Part shown: in pieces, positions 18,833 through 29,791 of the stretch
How the letters are laid out: the number at the start of each line of letters is the position of its first letter
Position numbering within the stretch: the first letter of the stretch is position 1
Assembly: GCA_022844565.1 (NCBI GenBank)
Contig: JALHLK010000003.1
Location: forward strand, 124,001 to 188,000
Direction: 5' to 3'
DNA length: 64,000 nt
Source: Saprospiraceae bacterium
Lineage (GTDB): Bacteria > Bacteroidota > Bacteroidia > Chitinophagales > Saprospiraceae
Notes under the pieces: model-generated
Told to the model about the DNA's origin: nothing
The model's database searches: none
The model's input: the letters and a program-made list of their open reading frames with translations, nothing else
Program-made: the position numbers and the translations under genes

Positions 18833-21157
18833 CTAATCCCCTACGATCAAAAACTTAGACACATAACTTTCCGAAGATTCAAAACTTAATTGAGAAGTGC
18901 TAAAAACCAGATATACTCCAGGGGCAGCTTTTCTACCTGCATAGTCGCGACCATCCCAATTGGCTTGACCACCTAATGCCTTAGTTTGATAGACAAGTAC
19001 ACCATTGATATCGGTTATTTTTACAGTAGCATCGCGCCCCAGACCTCTTATAGATATGGTACCTTCATATCCTGGCCTAACTGGATTTGGAAAAGTGTAC
19101 ACATTGGATGAATGCGTTTTTAAAGAACCAAAAGTCTCCGTTTGATAAGCTTGTATGCCTTGAATTGACCCAACATACATTAAGCCTGTAGTTCCGTCAA
19201 ATTTCAGTGTATAAACTTGATTGTCAAGGAGCGGGGAATTTTCTTTGGTAATGTGTAAAATTTGCTCACTTCCATCAGCAGACTGTACAAAAATCCCATT
19301 TCGAGTGCCAAACCATTTGCGATTGCCCCCATCTACCTCTATAGAAAGAACCTCCTCATTGCTCAGTAGGAGTCCGACAACACCATCTTGCACAACTTTC
19401 CTAATTGTACCCTTACATCGATCTTCAAATGGATTACAATCAAAAATAACAGGACCTTGATTGGTTCCAACCCACACACGACCTTCTAAGTCAACTTTAA
19501 TTGAATAGATTTTATTACCAGTAATTTCAGAATTGTTTAAGTCAAAATATTTGTATTTATCGTCTGTGGGATCTTGTATTTTCTCACCTTCATTAAAAAC
19601 CAATACACCTCCAGGATTGCCAGCAACTTGTATCCATTTATTACCTCGTTGATCTATAGCTATTCTTCCAATTTTAGTACTTACTATTGGTGGCTTAAAA
19701 GTAAACCAAGTACTGTCTTTAGTTAATGCTATGATTGGTCTTTCGGCATTAGTATGAGTAGCCCAAAGGGTAGCATTTTTATCAAATTTGACATCAGCAA
19801 CCCAAGGAACACTTCCATTGAGTGGGGCGTTCGTTCGGTTATAAAAAGTGAGTTTTTTGGTTATATAATCATATTTCATAATGCCAGAAAAATAACTTGC
19901 TGCATAAAGTTCATTTTTCTCTGGATGCACATCAATACCAAAGAAATTGTGATAATCACTCCTTTCTAATTCTGGGTTAAAGGCCCCGACGAGATTTTCC
20001 CATTTATTGCTATCATAGATGTAAATACCACTTCTAATTGATAATAGTGCTAAGTCTTCTGAAGCGCCTCCTGAAGCAAAGAATACTTTTCCTTTCTTTA
20101 TTGCAATGTCAGAGGTAGTGTGTGAAAAAGGAGATGGGTATTCAGTAAAAGTACACCCCTCATTTAAGCCTCTCGCCGTATGTCGTATAGCTCTCCATTC
20201 ATCTGCAAACCACAGTCTCGATTGCTCATCTTCGATTCCATACTTTGCACGATTAGAACAACCACCTCCAGCTGGCAATATCTTATTATCATCGGTAAGA
20301 GCAAAAGTGGAAGCACTATTTCCTTTATCTCTATAACCTACAATAAGATGTTTGCCTTCTCCACTGATATATTTTATTGTAAACCCATTTGGGGCTATTA
20401 AATTGGGTATTTTTGTAAAAAATATACCATCATTAGATTCATAAATTTCATTATCAATTCCAGCAAATATTTTATCACCTTTGGTAGCTATTGCATTTAC
20501 CGTATACAAAGCTTTTAGACCATTTCTTCCATCTAGTAGTTGCCATCGATTAAAATTGACCTTAAGCACATCATCTTTATTAATGGCATATAGACCATCT
20601 TCTGTAGATGCTACGAGCGTATTTTTTATCAATTTTACAGATATAATGGGTGTATTAGAGAAAATGGTGCTTCTAAATTCTTGCTTTTTTAAGTCCCATT
20701 CTATGATACCAAAACTTGTGGACAAGTAAGCAAAATTCTGATTAACAATTGATATATCATTTATATTTTTTAGGCCAGTAATAGTTCTATTTTCCTTGAT
20801 AAAAGGTAGATTTATTATGCCTTCTTTTGTTACCACATCAATGTCACCATTTTGGTAAGCTATGATCAGTTGGTCATTAAAATTATCAAAAGCTATTTTT
20901 TCAATCAATGTTTCAGAAAGTCCGTCTTGTCGAGATATTTCAGTCACACCACCACCAGATTTTTGGATCCCCAAAATGGACCTTGTCGTGCTATAATATA
21001 TTTTTTCCTTACTTTGGGTAACCCAATTACCTTCCCTTTGTGGTAAATAAGTGATCCATTCCCCAGTTTTAATCGGCAACTGGGCATTTAAATCTGAAAT
21101 TGAGATTAAAATACCAATGCAGACGAAAAGAATAAAATTATTTTTTTTGATAGGCAT
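18833..21157 (-). CDS. porZ: Type IX secretion system anionic-LPS delivery protein PorZ-like (two-component-regulator beta-propeller plus C-terminal T9SS-like domain)
   Basis: GEWITYLPQREGNWVTQSKEKIYYSTTRSILGIQKSGGGVTEISRQDGLSET...; propeller repeats (GRVWVGTNQGPVIFD); C-terminal FPNPVRPGYEGTISIRGL...VKITDINGVLVYQT. Confidence 0.85.
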   Translation of the reverse strand: MPIKKNNFILFVCIGILISISDLNAQLPIKTGEWITYLPQREGNWVTQSKEKIYYSTTRSILGIQKSGGGVTEISRQDGLSETLIEKIAFDNFNDQLIIAYQNGDIDVVTKEGIINLPFIKENRTITGLKNINDISIVNQNFAYLSTSFGIIEWDLKKQEFRSTIFSNTPIISVKLIKNTLVASTEDGLYAINKDDVLKVNFNRWQLLDGRNGLKALYTVNAIATKGDKIFAGIDNEIYESNDGIFFTKIPNLIAPNGFTIKYISGEGKHLIVGYRDKGNSASTFALTDDNKILPAGGGCSNRAKYGIEDEQSRLWFADEWRAIRHTARGLNEGCTFTEYPSPFSHTTSDIAIKKGKVFFASGGASEDLALLSIRSGIYIYDSNKWENLVGAFNPELERSDYHNFFGIDVHPEKNELYAASYFSGIMKYDYITKKLTFYNRTNAPLNGSVPWVADVKFDKNATLWATHTNAERPIIALTKDSTWFTFKPPIVSTKIGRIAIDQRGNKWIQVAGNPGGVLVFNEGEKIQDPTDDKYKYFDLNNSEITGNKIYSIKVDLEGRVWVGTNQGPVIFDCNPFEDRCKGTIRKVVQDGVVGLLLSNEEVLSIEVDGGNRKWFGTRNGIFVQSADGSEQILHITKENSPLLDNQVYTLKFDGTTGLMYVGSIQGIQAYQTETFGSLKTHSSNVYTFPNPVRPGYEGTISIRGLGRDATVKITDINGVLVYQTKALGGQANWDGRDYAGRKAAPGVYLVFSTSQLSFESSESYVSKFLIVGD

Positions 21158-21227
21158 ATCTTATATCTTGCAAATATATTCAAATAACGAGCAAATGACG
21201 ATTAACGTTTAAATAAACAAAGAAACT

Positions 21228-21390
21228 AGTGTTTTGTTAAGTGTGTTGTGTCTGTTAAGTTGCAGATATTTTTACTTCAGACAAATTAAAAAAATATGAG
21301 CATAGCCATAGCTACGCAAATATTTTTTTAAGAAGTATGAATTAAAAAGATCAAAACTTGGGCAGGCTAAAACATGCTTAACATAACACT
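21228..21390. repeat. 163-bp palindromic repeat element, copy 1
   Basis: Imperfect terminal inverted repeats AGTGTTTTGTTAAGTGTGTT / AACATGCTTAACATAACACT (17/20); ~96% identical to 27066-27228, same orientation. Confidence 0.85.
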
Positions 21391-21421
21391 AACTTAAAAA
21401 ATTAAAAAATTATTTTGAAAT

Positions 21422-22234
21422 ATGATGATGAAGGTAGTACTTTGGTCTTTTGAAATTTTAAAGTCATTAGATATGAGAAAAACAATTGTACTCTTCAGTG
21501 TTTTTTTATTCTTAGGGATCAATTTCTCGTCTGCTCAAAAGAAGGCTAAAAAAGTAGAGCCTACTGATCCAAAGCAGACGGAAGTATGGACTCCGGTACC
21601 TGTTGTCGTAACTCCAGGACAAGTTAATTCTTCAGCTCCATCAGATGCTGTTGTCATATTTGATGGCACGAATACGGATGCCTTCGAACATCTTGACGGA
21701 AGCCCAATAAAATGGACACTTAATGGAGACGGATCCATTACTGTTACCCCTAAATCTGGTGACATTAGAACCAAAGCATCGTTTGGAAGTTTCCAACTTC
21801 ATATAGAATGGAGAACACCTTCGGTTGTCAAAGGAGAAGGTCAAGGTAGAGGAAATAGTGGAATCTTTCTTCAGGATAAGTATGAAGTACAAGTATTAGA
21901 TAGTTATAATAACCTTACTTATTCAAACGGACAAGCTTCTTCTATTTACAAACAAACAATGCCTCTTGTAAATGCTTGTAGGCCTCCTGGAGAATGGCAA
22001 TCATACGACATCATTTACAAAGCACCAAAATTTAATAAGAAGGGAGTAAAAACATCAAGTGCTTATGTTACTGTAATCCAAAATGGTATTCTTACACATA
22101 ATAATACTAAAATTCAAGGAACAACACCTTATATAGGATGGCCAAAAAATCCACCACATGAAGATGGACCTTTAAAATTACAAGATCACGGTGATTTAGT
22201 GAGTTATAGAAATATTTGGTTAAGGAAATTGTAG
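21422..22234 (+). CDS. DUF1080 (3-keto-disaccharide hydrolase-like) secreted protein
   Basis: VIFDGTNTDAFEHLDGSPIKWTLNGDGSITVTPKSGDIRTKASFGSFQLHIEWRTP...GRGNSGIFLQDKYEVQVLDSY. True start may be the ATG at 21473. Confidence 0.92.
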   Translation: MMMKVVLWSFEILKSLDMRKTIVLFSVFLFLGINFSSAQKKAKKVEPTDPKQTEVWTPVPVVVTPGQVNSSAPSDAVVIFDGTNTDAFEHLDGSPIKWTLNGDGSITVTPKSGDIRTKASFGSFQLHIEWRTPSVVKGEGQGRGNSGIFLQDKYEVQVLDSYNNLTYSNGQASSIYKQTMPLVNACRPPGEWQSYDIIYKAPKFNKKGVKTSSAYVTVIQNGILTHNNTKIQGTTPYIGWPKNPPHEDGPLKLQDHGDLVSYRNIWLRKL

Positions 22235-22241
22235 ACCGTTA

Positions 22242-23120
22242 TTATCGCACCAACTTAATCAATCTATCTGGATAATCGGTAATAATTCCATCAACTTCGA
22301 GGGCTAAGATTTTTTTCATATCTTCCGTTTCATTAATCGTCCACGGGATGACTTTCATTCCTTTTTGTTTACACGCTGCTATTAGTTTTTGATCAACGAG
22401 TTTGAAATATGGACTGTAAGCAAAAGGGATGTGATCAAGTTTGGCTAAATGCCATTCAAGTGTATTGTCATCTTCGACCAACATTACAGTCTTTAAATTT
22501 TTGTCAATACTACGAGTATAATTTAGGCTTTCGTGATCAAATGATTGCACAGTGGTTTTGTCAGCTATACCGAGATATTTAATTTCTTCTACTACTTTTG
22601 AAGTGAAAGAAAAGCCAGAAGGGTGATAGACACCGTCGCCTTCTGGCGTTCGCTTAATTTCTATATTATAAAAAGGATCATAACCTGCTTCTTTTACGGA
22701 TTTCACCACATCTGCAAGCGTAGGTTTATTAATTTTTATTTTCTTTTGGTCAGGAAATCTAGGGTGAGGCTTCATACCCACGTCAAAAGACTTGACGGTA
22801 GGTGTAGTCATAGTGTAAATGTTAAACTCTTTTTCATTTTCTTCAGTAATTGGAATTTCAAAATGACTGGTACTGATCTCATGATTAAAAAAAGCTTCAT
22901 GTGACACGATCACGCTGCCATCTGCACTGATGACGACATCCATTTCTAAAGTAGTTACGCCCAATTTACATGCTTCTAAAAATGCAGGAATGGTATTTTC
23001 AGGTAATAGACCTCGGCAGCCTCGATGACCTTGAATGTCAAAATCTTTGTATTGATTGCATGATATCATTGTCGTATATATTATTATAGTGCAAAAAGTG
23101 GTAATGTTTGTTTGCTTCAT
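22242..23120 (-). CDS. Glycerophosphodiester phosphodiesterase family protein (lipoprotein-like)
   Basis: FDIQGHRGCRGLLPENTIPAFLEACKLGVTTLEMDVVISADGSVIVSHE...; VIPWTINETEDMKKILALEVDGIITDYPDRL. Confidence 0.95.
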   Translation of the reverse strand: MKQTNITTFCTIIIYTTMISCNQYKDFDIQGHRGCRGLLPENTIPAFLEACKLGVTTLEMDVVISADGSVIVSHEAFFNHEISTSHFEIPITEENEKEFNIYTMTTPTVKSFDVGMKPHPRFPDQKKIKINKPTLADVVKSVKEAGYDPFYNIEIKRTPEGDGVYHPSGFSFTSKVVEEIKYLGIADKTTVQSFDHESLNYTRSIDKNLKTVMLVEDDNTLEWHLAKLDHIPFAYSPYFKLVDQKLIAACKQKGMKVIPWTINETEDMKKILALEVDGIITDYPDRLIKLVR

Positions 23121-23126
23121 ATTTTC

Positions 23127-23972
23127 TTAATTTTGTAGTGATAGTGCATGAAAGTCAAGGTGTTTGCTTTTGATCGATGTATCCATGAATAAGGCTGATT
23201 TTTCATCAAAATCTAAAGGATCGTCTGTCGTGTAAATATCCAGACTTCCACCTTTTGTAATTTGCTCATTCATCCATTGATGTCTATTGAGATATTCTTT
23301 TAAACTTGTGGCAACTATCGGACCTTGTTCTACGATGCGTATGTAGTCAGGTAGAAATTGTTTAATTTTATCTTTAAGGATAGGGTAGTGGGTACATGCC
23401 AATAAAAGTGTGTCTGTGCTAGGATTCTGGGTGAGTAATTGGTCGATATATTTTTTTACAAAATAATCAGCCCCTTGACTTGAATGTTCATTATTTTCTA
23501 TCAATGGTACAAATAATGGGCAAGCTACTTGACTTACGCTGGTGTCAGGAAAAAACTTACCTATTTCTATCAAATACGACTCCGAGACTACCGTACCACG
23601 AGTGGCAAAAATTCCAAGATTTCCTGTTTTGCTGAATGTTCCTATGATTTCAGACGTAGGTCTAATTACCCCTAAAACCCTTTTATTGGAGTCTATTTTA
23701 GGTAAATCTAGTTGTTGTATATTTCTAAGTGCTTTTGCGGAGGCCGTATTGCAAGCTAGGATGACCAATTCACATCCTTGACTAAAAAGCCATTTTACGG
23801 ATTCAAGGGTATACTGATATACCGTTTCAAAGCTTCTATTGCCATAAGGTGCGCGCGCATTATCGCCAAGATATAAATAATCATATTCGGGTAGTAGTGT
23901 TCTTATATCTTTTAAGATGGTCAATCCTCCAAAACCGCTGTCAAAAATACCTATGGGCTTTTTATTTATCAC
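23127..23972 (-). CDS. murI: Glutamate racemase
   Basis: PIGIFDSGFGGLTILKDIR...YLGDNARAPYGNRS...LVILACNTASAKAL...LLACTHYPIL. Confidence 0.97.
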   Translation of the reverse strand: MINKKPIGIFDSGFGGLTILKDIRTLLPEYDYLYLGDNARAPYGNRSFETVYQYTLESVKWLFSQGCELVILACNTASAKALRNIQQLDLPKIDSNKRVLGVIRPTSEIIGTFSKTGNLGIFATRGTVVSESYLIEIGKFFPDTSVSQVACPLFVPLIENNEHSSQGADYFVKKYIDQLLTQNPSTDTLLLACTHYPILKDKIKQFLPDYIRIVEQGPIVATSLKEYLNRHQWMNEQITKGGSLDIYTTDDPLDFDEKSALFMDTSIKSKHLDFHALSLQN

Positions 23973-24081
23973 TATTTTAATGTTACTTGTGCGTGCTAAG
24001 GTAAAACAAATAAGATATTTCTCATGTTATTATTTCATTAGATTTAGAACAAATCCTAAATTTGATTTTTAAATTTTCATA

Positions 24082-24834
24082 ATGAAATTAAAAACAGCAA
24101 TTGTTTCCTATCATAATACAGTTCCTTTTTTAGAGGCAATACAACATTCCGATATAGGTAATCAACTTGAGCTTTTTCTTACGCCTCCATCTCAATGCGC
24201 TAACTTATTTGCCAATGGAAGTGTGGATTTGGCCTTAGTGCCTGTTGGTTCTCTCCAAGATTTGACGGATTACAAAATCATTACAGATACCTGTATCGGC
24301 TGCAACGGTTCAGTGTACACTGTAGCAATATTTTCTAATAATCCCCTTCATCTTTGTAAAGGTATTTATCTAGATGCAGATTCTCGCACAAGTAATGATC
24401 TAGCCCAAATAATCACCAACGAATATATGCAAATAGACTTAGAAGTCAAAGGTTTTATCAATTTTTCGTTTCAGTTTAATGACGAAGATGCATATATCCT
24501 TATTGGTGATAAGGTTTTCGAGCACGAGCATAAATTTAGCTATAAATTCGACTTAGGCACTCTTTGGAAAGAATATGTAGGATTGCCTTTTGCATTTGCG
24601 GTTTGGATCGTTAGGAATAATGTCGATTTAGAACTTGAATATGAAGTCTGTAAAGTTTTAAATAACTTAAATCTTAATCAAATAGAGGATGAAAAAATAG
24701 GCCCGAATATGACCCTTTTGACATACTTAAATGATTTTATCTCCTTTGATTTTGATGAAAACAAGAAATTGGCTTTGAGTAAATATTTATTACTTCAGAA
24801 GAAGTTAAAAGTAGGTTCGGAAGTAGAATTTTAA
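24082..24834 (+). CDS. mqnA: Menaquinone biosynthesis chorismate dehydratase MqnA
   Basis: TAIVSYHNTVPFLEAI...DLALVPVGSL...IGCNGSVYTVAIFS...LIGDKVFE...WKEYVGLPFAFAVWIVR. Confidence 0.9.
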   Translation: MKLKTAIVSYHNTVPFLEAIQHSDIGNQLELFLTPPSQCANLFANGSVDLALVPVGSLQDLTDYKIITDTCIGCNGSVYTVAIFSNNPLHLCKGIYLDADSRTSNDLAQIITNEYMQIDLEVKGFINFSFQFNDEDAYILIGDKVFEHEHKFSYKFDLGTLWKEYVGLPFAFAVWIVRNNVDLELEYEVCKVLNNLNLNQIEDEKIGPNMTLLTYLNDFISFDFDENKKLALSKYLLLQKKLKVGSEVEF

Positions 24835-24850
24835 ATTAGTAAAAATTTAT

Positions 24851-25306
24851 GGCTCTATGTCGAAAGCTGTGGGCACAACCATATGTAAAAGAATTCTATG
24901 CAATCAAGTAGCAATACCCCTCTATCAATACTCTGTTCTTTTGTCTTGATACATGACTGAACGATGCTTTAGCAAAATTGTGATACGAAATCACAATTTA
25001 GAGAAGGAACCGAAGAAAACTTTCTGAGGGGTACCAAAAAATCAAGGCTTTAACCAAAAATACTAAAAACACTTCACAAAACCTAAATTTGAAAAACTCG
25101 CATAAATTTTGAACTTCGATTAATAATCAATATGTTATAATACAATATCATTTTGATTTTATAGTATTACGTGCTCAAACAGTTTCAAATTTTTAACGGT
25201 TTTATTCCGTAATTTTTTAACGTATTTTTGATTAAGGCCATTTCAAGAATGAGCCTAAGTTATTTATATAACAATTTTTCTACCCATACAAATCGACATA
25301 GAGCCA
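24851..25306. repeat. ~456-bp non-coding element with 13-bp terminal inverted repeats and a nested second palindromic element (24915-25033)
   Basis: GGCTCTATGTCGA (24851-24863)/TCGACATAGAGCC (25294-25306); inner TACCCCTC (24915-24922)/GAGGGGTA (25026-25033) around hairpin AAATTGTGA-TACGAAA-TCACAATTT (24975-24999). Confidence 0.75.
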
Positions 25307-25309
25307 AAT

Positions 25310-25840
25310 TTACTCTTCAAAGCACTCTGCAATATCAAAATTGATCTGACATCCATCTAAATCAAAATCATTGGTATACAACCTTTCGTATACTCCATTT
25401 AAGAGTTGATACACTTCATACGTATTGTCTTTAGGGTCAACAATGATGTAATATTTGACACCTTCGTTCTGATAAAGGTCGTATTTGGTATTTCTATCTT
25501 TAAGAGCTGTTGACGGAGACAGAATTTCTACTATCAAACTTGGAGTAAAGTCAAGATACTGGCCTTTGATTGGCTGACAGACGATCAGTAAATCTGGATT
25601 TAGAATGGTATCATCTTTAACCAGATAGTCTATTGGTTGATAAACTCTGCATTTTTTACAGCCACTTATTCTTATTGCGCCCCTAATTATTTGGGAAAGC
25701 GCAGCACTGATTTCTTGATGTCTTGGATTAGGCATTGGAGACATGGCAATAGCAATGCCTCGGATAATTTCCCATCTTCCTTGCCAGATTTTATAATCTT
25801 CGTAAGTGTAGTGAGGTAAAATTTGTCTTATCGAGCCCAT
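25310..25840 (-). CDS. Uma2 family endonuclease-like protein (DUF820)
   Basis: YTYEDYKIWQGRWEIIRGIAIAMSPMPNPRHQEISAAL...DDTILNPDLLIVC...PSLIVEILSPSTALKDRNTKYDLYQNEGVKYYIIVDP. Confidence 0.92.
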   Translation of the reverse strand: MGSIRQILPHYTYEDYKIWQGRWEIIRGIAIAMSPMPNPRHQEISAALSQIIRGAIRISGCKKCRVYQPIDYLVKDDTILNPDLLIVCQPIKGQYLDFTPSLIVEILSPSTALKDRNTKYDLYQNEGVKYYIIVDPKDNTYEVYQLLNGVYERLYTNDFDLDGCQINFDIAECFEE

Positions 25841-25914
25841 TAATTCAGTCTTAATAGTGACAAAGATAAGAATTTTTAAAATATAAGATGAAAAAATAAG
25901 TTTCTATCAATAAG

Positions 25915-26064
25915 CTATGACCCTATTAACTGCTTCTCTTTTGAGGTTGATTCGAAAAGAGCTAAAAACAAATCAACAACATAATTTAAAATACCTTTGA
26001 TCAAGCTATAAGGCATACAGATTACCAAGGCTGTCAGAATTGCAAAAAGTAATTTCTTGTTCAT
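25915..26064 (-). CDS. Small putative membrane protein (49 aa)
   Basis: Manual translation MNKKLLFAILTALVICMPYSLIKGILNYVVDLFLALFESTSKEKQLIGS; hydrophobic helices; ORF below track cut-off. Confidence 0.4.
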   Translation of the reverse strand: MNKKLLFAILTALVICMPYSLIKGILNYVVDLFLALFESTSKEKQLIGS

Positions 26065-26145
26065 AGAATCAAATTTTTTACAAAATTATATTACCCGTGT
26101 TAACTCTATATAAACACTACATTACCAATACGTTAAATTATCTCT

Positions 26146-27048
26146 TTAAAAAAACAAATCTTGCGCAACTCTAAACGTATTAGCATGGCAATCGACAATG
26201 TCAGCCAATTTATGCGAGTAGCCTCCTCCCATACTGATTGCAACAGGGATATTGTTCTTTTTAAATAAGTCTAGGCTGTATCGATCTCTTTCTTTACATC
26301 CCTGTTTTGATACAGATAGTCTGCCTAATTTGTCACTTTCTATGATATCAACTCCTGATAGATAGAAGATAAATTCAGGCTGGATTTCGTCAACTAATCT
26401 AGAGAGTACATTTTTTAAAGTGTTTAGGTAGAGGTTGTCGTCTGTTTTATCTGGTAAACCGATATCAAGATTACTTTTCTCTTTTCTAGTGGGAAAATTT
26501 TTCTCTCCATGTATGCTAAATGTAAAAACCCTATCTTCAAATTCGAAGATTTTGGCAGTGCCATTACCTTGATGTACATCGACATCTACTACTAATATTT
26601 TTTGAATACTATGTTTATGCAATAGTAGATTAGAAGCGATGGCAATATCATTAAATACACAAAAGCCCTCACCAAAATCTCTGAAGGAATGATGTGTTCC
26701 TCCAGCAATATTCATCGATATCTTATGCTCTATAGCATGTAAAGCACACTGATAAGTACCATTTGCGATATGTTTTCCTCTATCTACAAGGGATTTTGAC
26801 ATTGGGAAACCAATTCTTTTTATTTCTTTGGTATCTAAGGTTTGATTATTTAGTTTTGTTAAATAATCTTCACTATGGGTCAATAACAGGTCCTCATCTG
26901 CCATTTGTTCTGGTACAAAAAAGTTGTCATTTGATACAGTACCTTCGTACAGTAGTTGTTCAGGTATCAGATCATATTTAACCATAGGAAACCTATGACC
27001 ATCTGGTAGTTGGTACTTATAACATTCGTGAAAGGCAATTTTTAGCAA
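26146..27048 (-). CDS. Histone deacetylase family (class IV-like) protein
   Basis: NIAGGTHHSFRDFGEGFCVFNDIAIAS...ILVVDVDVHQGNGTAKIF...FYLSGVDIIESDKLGRLSVSKQG. Confidence 0.93.
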   Translation of the reverse strand: MLKIAFHECYKYQLPDGHRFPMVKYDLIPEQLLYEGTVSNDNFFVPEQMADEDLLLTHSEDYLTKLNNQTLDTKEIKRIGFPMSKSLVDRGKHIANGTYQCALHAIEHKISMNIAGGTHHSFRDFGEGFCVFNDIAIASNLLLHKHSIQKILVVDVDVHQGNGTAKIFEFEDRVFTFSIHGEKNFPTRKEKSNLDIGLPDKTDDNLYLNTLKNVLSRLVDEIQPEFIFYLSGVDIIESDKLGRLSVSKQGCKERDRYSLDLFKKNNIPVAISMGGGYSHKLADIVDCHANTFRVAQDLFF

Positions 27049-27065
27049 TGTTCAGATTGATTATT

Positions 27066-27228
27066 AGTGTTATGTTAAGTATGTTGTGTCTGTTAAGTTG
27101 CAGATATTTTTACTTCAAACAAATTAAAAAAATATGAGCATAGCCTTAGCTACGCAAATATTTTTTTAAGAAGTATGAATTAAAAAGATCAAAACTTGGG
27201 CGGGCTAAAACATGCTTAAAATAACACT
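27066..27228. repeat. 163-bp palindromic repeat element, copy 2
   Basis: AGTGTTATGTTAAGTATGTT ... AACATGCTTAAAATAACACT reading of the two ends; differs from 21228-21390 at about 6 positions. Confidence 0.85.
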
Positions 27229-27293
27229 AGAAACATAATAATCTCTAACGTTAAAAGTTCAATATACGATTGTGAAATTATTTTTCTAATACA

Positions 27294-29626: not shown

Positions 29627-29791
29627 CTAGTGCTCCGTCTAAATAAAAAATTAAATAATTTGTGGCTCTTTTTGAATATCTCTTCGTTAAAAAGCCTCGC
29701 TGAACTAGTCAGTTCAACTACGTTTTTCGCCTTGATCTATCCAAAAATAACTCACAACTTAATTTAAAAAATTAATTAGACGGAGCACTAG
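29627..29791. repeat. 165-bp palindromic element with perfect 16-bp terminal inverted repeats
   Basis: CTAGTGCTCCGTCTAA (29627-29642) and TTAGACGGAGCACTAG (29776-29791); apical hairpin TGAACT-AGTC-AGTTCA (29701-29716). Confidence 0.8.

Follow-up and report, generated by a model that had tools for sequence, protein, structure and literature searches.

A mobile hairpin element family with a conserved, strand-polar core in one order of bacteria

A 64,000-nucleotide stretch of a Saprospiraceae bacterium genome (assembly GCA_022844565.1, contig JALHLK010000003.1, positions 124,001 to 188,000, forward strand; hereafter the window) carries two near-identical palindromic elements, members of a single family that is distributed across one bacterial order. 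These elements are mobile and duplicate their target sites. Their ends vary between subfamilies, and the pairing pattern of the core they share indicates a strand-polar fold. The elements are probably non-autonomous, fully palindromic transposable elements, or hairpin miniature inverted-repeat transposable elements (MITEs), with a core selected as a folded single strand of fixed polarity.

To move, the elements would rely on a DDE-type transposase provided in trans that cuts at the terminal inverted repeats, and insertion would duplicate TA in subfamily A or 3 bp, mostly TTA or TAA, in another subfamily. The ends would have diverged into several terminal classes, with a core of about 110 nt kept by selection as a folded strand. 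This strand would most likely be RNA, made when a copy is transcribed from outside, and we infer that a factor acting in trans, perhaps RNase III or another endoribonuclease of the host, or else a factor of transposition, may recognise the core. In the usual description of a bacterial MITE, the two ends matter and the interior can be dispensed with. In this family it is the interior that is conserved, with a strand-specific fold, and the ends that vary, suggesting that something selects the folded strand itself and making it possible to test for a functional RNA in a bacterial MITE.

Copies in the window

Copies 1 and 2 (Table 1) lie in the same orientation and differ by exactly six substitutions, in agreement with an earlier note on this DNA, made from the letters alone, that had counted about six. 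The duplicated block described there is real, although its length of 163 bp needs correction: the shared block measures 165 bp from TA to TA, and 161 bp without the TAs. This block is the sole direct repeat of at least 40 bp in the window. Terminal inverted repeats are present, and each copy forms one imperfect end-to-end hairpin, as the note had proposed; the RNA minimum free energy (MFE) of copy 1 is -59.4 kcal/mol against a mean of -28.1 for dinucleotide shuffles (z = -9.9). The remark that no open reading frame lies inside the two copies also holds, since neither has an open frame longer than 38 codons; across all three members in the window the longest is 45 codons. Copy 1 is located between a divergent gene pair and copy 2 between two co-directional genes.

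The two copies are the only near-identical pair in the genome, but a third, divergent member within the window had been overlooked. Its ends read TA followed by GTGCTCCGTCTAAATAA, and its apex, GAACTGACTAGTTC, is unlike that of copies 1 and 2.

Extent of the family

Direct DNA search of the window genome finds no near-identical copy beyond copies 1 and 2. Further copies, whose absence the earlier note had named as a refutation, are nevertheless numerous in the form of divergent relatives. The apex pattern GCATAGCCNTAGCTACG, with at most two mismatches allowed, matches 20 times in the window genome versus twice for a reversed control, and most of these matches fold as hairpins of about 160 nt with quite different ends. 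A covariance model built on the 110-nt core, R1, locates about 68 distinct places in the same genome (E about 0.01 or better, opposite-strand duplicates removed) and matches in 98 of 249 genomes searched, spanning five families of one order. Gene content, for example a gene for a PorZ-like propeller protein in the window, suggests that this order is probably in the Bacteroidota. Relatives from the family and the order have the hairpin centre in common with the window copies.

One relative, G018, has a 162-bp version of its own in about 40 copies, which lie nested within a larger repeat. This larger repeat (e.g. L023-L052) is several hundred base pairs long, with outer ends near GGGTGYATTTCAAAATGTCG and additional small palindromes, GCATCAGCGATGTG and GGGTGATGCCC.

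Plasmids and phages give no real match to the family, and no Rfam 15 family scores above its gathering threshold. The apex pattern occurs in 10 viral contigs, only one of which (L215) scores with the covariance model. That contig, IMGVR_UViG_3300033064_007428, holds a partial family hairpin at 2205-2289 (53.9 bits) that might derive from the host or be carried by a phage. An exact 20-mer match in Xanthomarina, the sole one in the genome_contigs collection, is surrounded by sequence without the hairpin fold and is taken as chance.

Mobility and terminal classes

Insertion is recorded on contig C11 of the window genome, where one Uma2-type gene contains two subfamily-A copies with 317 bp between them. 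The copies are 162 and 164 bp long, each counted with one TA. When each is excised in silico together with one TA, a single uninterrupted Uma2 frame results, which identifies the target duplication as TA and the copies as two insertions. An intact paralogue of this interrupted gene is found in the window at 25310-25840 on the minus strand, about 1.2 kb from copy 2.

Another subfamily duplicates 3 bp. Subfamily D has the ends GGAACTGTAAAGAAATAA, and 9 of its 16 rows from the window genome have agreeing flanking 3-mers (TAA/TAA or TTA/TTA), the non-matching rows being mostly eroded or adjacent ends or mis-hits of the pattern. In other genomes, 29 copies include 14 with agreeing 3-mers, among them TTT/TTT, ATA/ATA and TAT/TAT; this variety indicates that the duplication there is 3 bp long. 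The exact TA duplication with its restored frame, the 3-bp duplications and the tens of dispersed copies bear out the earlier suggestion of a mobile, MITE-like element.

The subfamilies have a common core and differing terminal inverted repeats. Three terminal classes recur across genera: TA followed by GTGYT, TA followed by TACC, and TWA followed by GGR...AAATAA. Copies are also found inserted beside and inside one another. At C70:11607-11925 of the window genome (L212), a class C hairpin sits within the apical loop region of a class D hairpin. Two further hairpins of that genome (C37:25037-25367 and C17:75875-76042; L148 and L158) have an enlarged apex with additional stem-loops, perhaps left over from an earlier insertion in the loop.

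A core folded as one strand

The conserved parts of the core are an apical TAGC-CNNR-GCTA stem-loop, an A.C mismatch beneath it, an asymmetric AGGC/AACG internal loop and a TTTT/AAAAGA segment. Standard pairs fill 93.5% of the cells in 103 aligned hairpins, as compared with 68.2% after shuffling and 47-55% after sliding, and 33 of 35 core pairs have changes on both sides; because the alignment was made with the covariance model, these pairing figures lean towards the model. The earlier note had held its proposal open to refutation by a stem devoid of covariation, and covariation is instead found at nearly every pair.

Covariation by itself is insufficient, since template switching is another way in which a palindrome can be corrected. 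The arms of a MITE might thus stay complementary through mutation and template-switch correction, with the folded strand unselected. Such correction can yield paired changes that mimic covariation, hairpin MITEs require only their ends, and the target duplications indicate DNA transposition. Correction would, however, remove mismatches, yet the apical A.C mismatch and the AGGC/AACG loop are kept across families. Moreover, a cause acting on double-stranded DNA or a cruciform would make G.T and A.C equally frequent. On the strand carrying GCATAGCC-apex-GCTACG, paired columns of 63 non-redundant hairpins hold G.U 133 times versus A.C 14 times, a count biased in this direction because the covariance model favours RNA-like structure. 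Less biased is the ratio of 39:8 in 18 seeds, which were gathered ahead of any model through the apex pattern or DNA similarity alone, although related seeds are not independent. The apex strand also folds better in all 64 representatives, with an MFE lower by a mean of 15.3 kcal/mol. The polar ratio points to a single strand of fixed polarity that is folded and selected, and largely refutes a palindrome maintained as DNA. A core that is conserved under variable ends is also the reverse of what transposase recognition alone would predict, and an unselected palindrome is very unlikely.

The covariation and the strand-specific excess of G.U agree with the RNA-level element that the earlier note had put forward as an alternative to a mobile one, though sequence alone cannot separate RNA from single-stranded DNA. 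Polarity and conserved mismatches suit any folded single strand, and G.T pairs are tolerated in folded single-stranded DNA too, so that RNA is not proven. The selected strand might instead be single-stranded DNA exposed in replication and moved by a hairpin-recognising enzyme, HUH/RAYT-like or integrase-like, in the manner of repetitive extragenic palindromic (REP) sequences or attC sites. In the complete genome G068, the apex strand is the leading strand in 21 of 29 hairpins (two-sided p about 0.02), as this explanation would have it, but a second complete genome, G211, has just 5 of 14 hairpins concordant; G209 and the window genome show no clear skew for a replichore test. The long inverted repeat ends with 2- or 3-bp target duplications speak against this route as well, and HUH elements are not known to make such duplications with long inverted repeats. 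The REP-associated tyrosine transposase (RAYT) genes of the window genome are accompanied by short palindromes of their own and lack the family apex. Single-stranded DNA is on this evidence an unlikely form of the element, and RNA is most likely the carrier of the selected fold.

An origin from RAYT genes and REP sequences was likewise rejected: the Y1 transposase loci lack the family apex and carry other palindromes, and the elements measure about 160 bp as against 20-40 bp for REP sequences. At C11:56067-57869 of the window genome (L019, L020, L022), tandem, near-identical RAYT (Y1_Tnp) gene sets stand among short REP-like palindromes, GCCCTTTCAGGGCTTGTGACC, which are unrelated to the hairpin family; part of this locus is an assembly gap.

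A strong strand-specific fold and mostly intergenic placement might equally be expected of a host-owned cis-regulatory RNA (a terminator, attenuator or mRNA stabiliser) that merely happens to occur in many copies. The elements show no bias in orientation towards the genes beside them (30:21 upstream, 29:22 downstream), evidence against cis regulation on behalf of the host. One window copy lies between divergent genes, copies elsewhere lie within a gene, and the elements have no terminal U-tract and no counterpart in Rfam. Host regulation in cis is accordingly an extremely improbable origin of the fold.

A stronger variant of the hairpin-MITE explanation is possible but doubtful. Under this variant, the family would be a mobile structured RNA whose transposon ends can be exchanged, with at least three unrelated terminal classes; non-autonomous transposons would have spread it across the order, and the RNA fold would be needed for the success of the element. 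If so, the hairpin core could act, for example, as a trans-acting RNA or as a co-factor of transposition.

Search for a mobilising enzyme

Target duplications of 2-3 bp suggest that the mover is a DDE enzyme, by analogy with the IS630, IS5 or IS30 families. A TA duplication of the IS630/Tc1-mariner type is seen in subfamily A only. Across 59 loci there is no recurrent neighbour gene, apart from overlapping loci and short repeat-derived frames. In the absence of such a gene and of an insertion sequence (IS) with the family ends, the elements are treated as non-autonomous.

Three results of this search weigh against a hairpin MITE moved in trans, as do, for its folded strand, the bias of the larger pairing count, the relatedness of the seeds, the tolerance of G.T in single-stranded DNA and the even orientation towards host genes. 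First, the window genome has no DDE_3 (PF13358) gene, which rules out an IS630 partner there; an IS630-type enzyme, if once present, may have been lost. Second, the class C/D end pattern in the window genome marks no IS, just hairpins, remnants and one nested pair. Third, no autonomous partner with matching ends is among the matches listed for about 1.6 Mb of sampled 20-kb stretches, which comprise only chance pairs and the IS1182-family element of G068 described below; the loose class A end pattern gave mostly chance pairs in this sample. The transposase with matching ends that the earlier note had proposed to seek is thus missing from the window genome and the sampled sequence, and so is an autonomous parent with the same ends, in a search that covered some transposase families only.

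A probable IS1182-family element in the apical loop

In G068, a 1597-bp element, probably of the IS1182 family, is present in six copies, and every copy lies precisely within the 4-nt apical loop of a family hairpin. The loop is duplicated on both sides (CTTA, TATG, TAAG), the element stands in either orientation, and the host hairpins have different arms. Rejoining the flanks restores the hairpin. The transposase models DUF772 and DDE_Tnp_1_6 score above cut-off, and NF033551 matches two halves of the frame (E 3.8e-31 and 1.9e-67), each below the 270-bit full-length cut-off since the frame is split. In the copy L331 the split falls near a run of A, perhaps reflecting programmed frameshifting.

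Some members of the IS1182 family target palindromes. IS1272 replaces its stem-loop without duplication, and a loop-duplicating pathway has been proposed as an alternative (PMC5678879). The G068 element, assigned to IS1182 by model, likewise inserts in a stem-loop but keeps and duplicates the loop in all six cases; its sequence fits the alternative that had only been proposed for this family (PMC5678879).

Such precise targeting raises the question of whether the hairpin is chiefly a landing site for IS1182-family elements, with the apical loop as the target and hairpin and IS spreading jointly. The six loop insertions, in both orientations and under differing arms, would be expected in that case. 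No match to the IS end is, however, seen in four hairpin-rich genomes (the window genome, G018, G209 and G211), and targeting would account for the apex but not for the internal loops or the strand polarity. A role mainly as landing site is decidedly unlikely. The element was also rejected as owner of the hairpin ends, since it sits inside the loop and its own ends differ from them; with these ends not found in the window genome either, it is a guest of the hairpin and not the mover.

Comparison with known hairpin elements

The order-wide family appears to be new, and in kind is best classed with the ERIC, RUP, BOX and Correia elements as a hairpin MITE. ERIC/IRU elements duplicate TA on insertion. 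By description only, they resemble the present family as dispersed non-autonomous palindromes with this duplication, but in the present family a single core carries several terminal classes, members occur in several families of an order, and 3-bp duplicators are included. The Correia/NEMIS elements of Neisseria are TA-duplicating hairpin MITEs, like subfamily A, and we know of no conserved internal core of comparable reach in them. Correia/NEMIS transcripts are cut by RNase III, and ERIC/IRU is an imperfect palindrome of about 127 bp, non-autonomous and mostly intergenic, with tens to hundreds of dispersed copies (PMC10969869).

RUP and BOX of Streptococcus pneumoniae are mobile repeats whose inverted ends pair in a tight fold, as in the present family, and have been proposed to influence the genes transcribed together with them (PMC3049150). 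Both are known from S. pneumoniae and close relatives. RUP, a 107-bp AT-rich repeat, has ends resembling an IS630-type element (PMC3049150), whereas no mobilising IS has been found for the present family. The text of that study contains no analysis of covariation or compensatory changes, so strand polarity is not comparable (PMC3049150). IS1397, ISKpn1 and ISPpu9 are insertion sequences specific for REP palindromes, a repeated target (PMC1525189). The G068 element is similarly specific for a repeated palindrome; REP targets span 20-40 bp, whereas the target here is itself a transposable element. What sets the family apart from the ERIC, RUP, BOX and Correia elements is a conserved, strand-polar core that several unrelated terminal classes have in common, together with its use as a specific target by an IS1182-type element.

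Feature coordinates and neighbouring gene

Table 1. Positions of the hairpin elements in the window and of the IS1182-family copies in G068
Feature	Location	Strand	Details
Copy 1 with flanking TAs	21227-21391	+	Element proper 21229-21389, 161 bp, subfamily A
Copy 1 target-site TAs	left 21227-21228, right 21390-21391	.	TA duplication demonstrated on sister copies in an occupied gene
Copy 1 conserved 110-nt core	21253-21363	+	Covariance model R1, 103 bits; apex GCATAGCCATAGCTACG at 21300-21316
Copy 2 with flanking TAs	27065-27229	+	Element proper 27067-27227, 161 bp, subfamily A
Copy 2 conserved core	27091-27201	+	Covariance model R1, 102.9 bits
Third, divergent member with flanking TAs	29628-29790	-	Element proper 29630-29788, subfamily E, 48 bits
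IS1182-family copies	G068:C1 at 478234, 1018740, 1450272, 1627015, 2678608, 7118384		L407-L418

A PorZ-like propeller protein is encoded at window positions 18833-21157.

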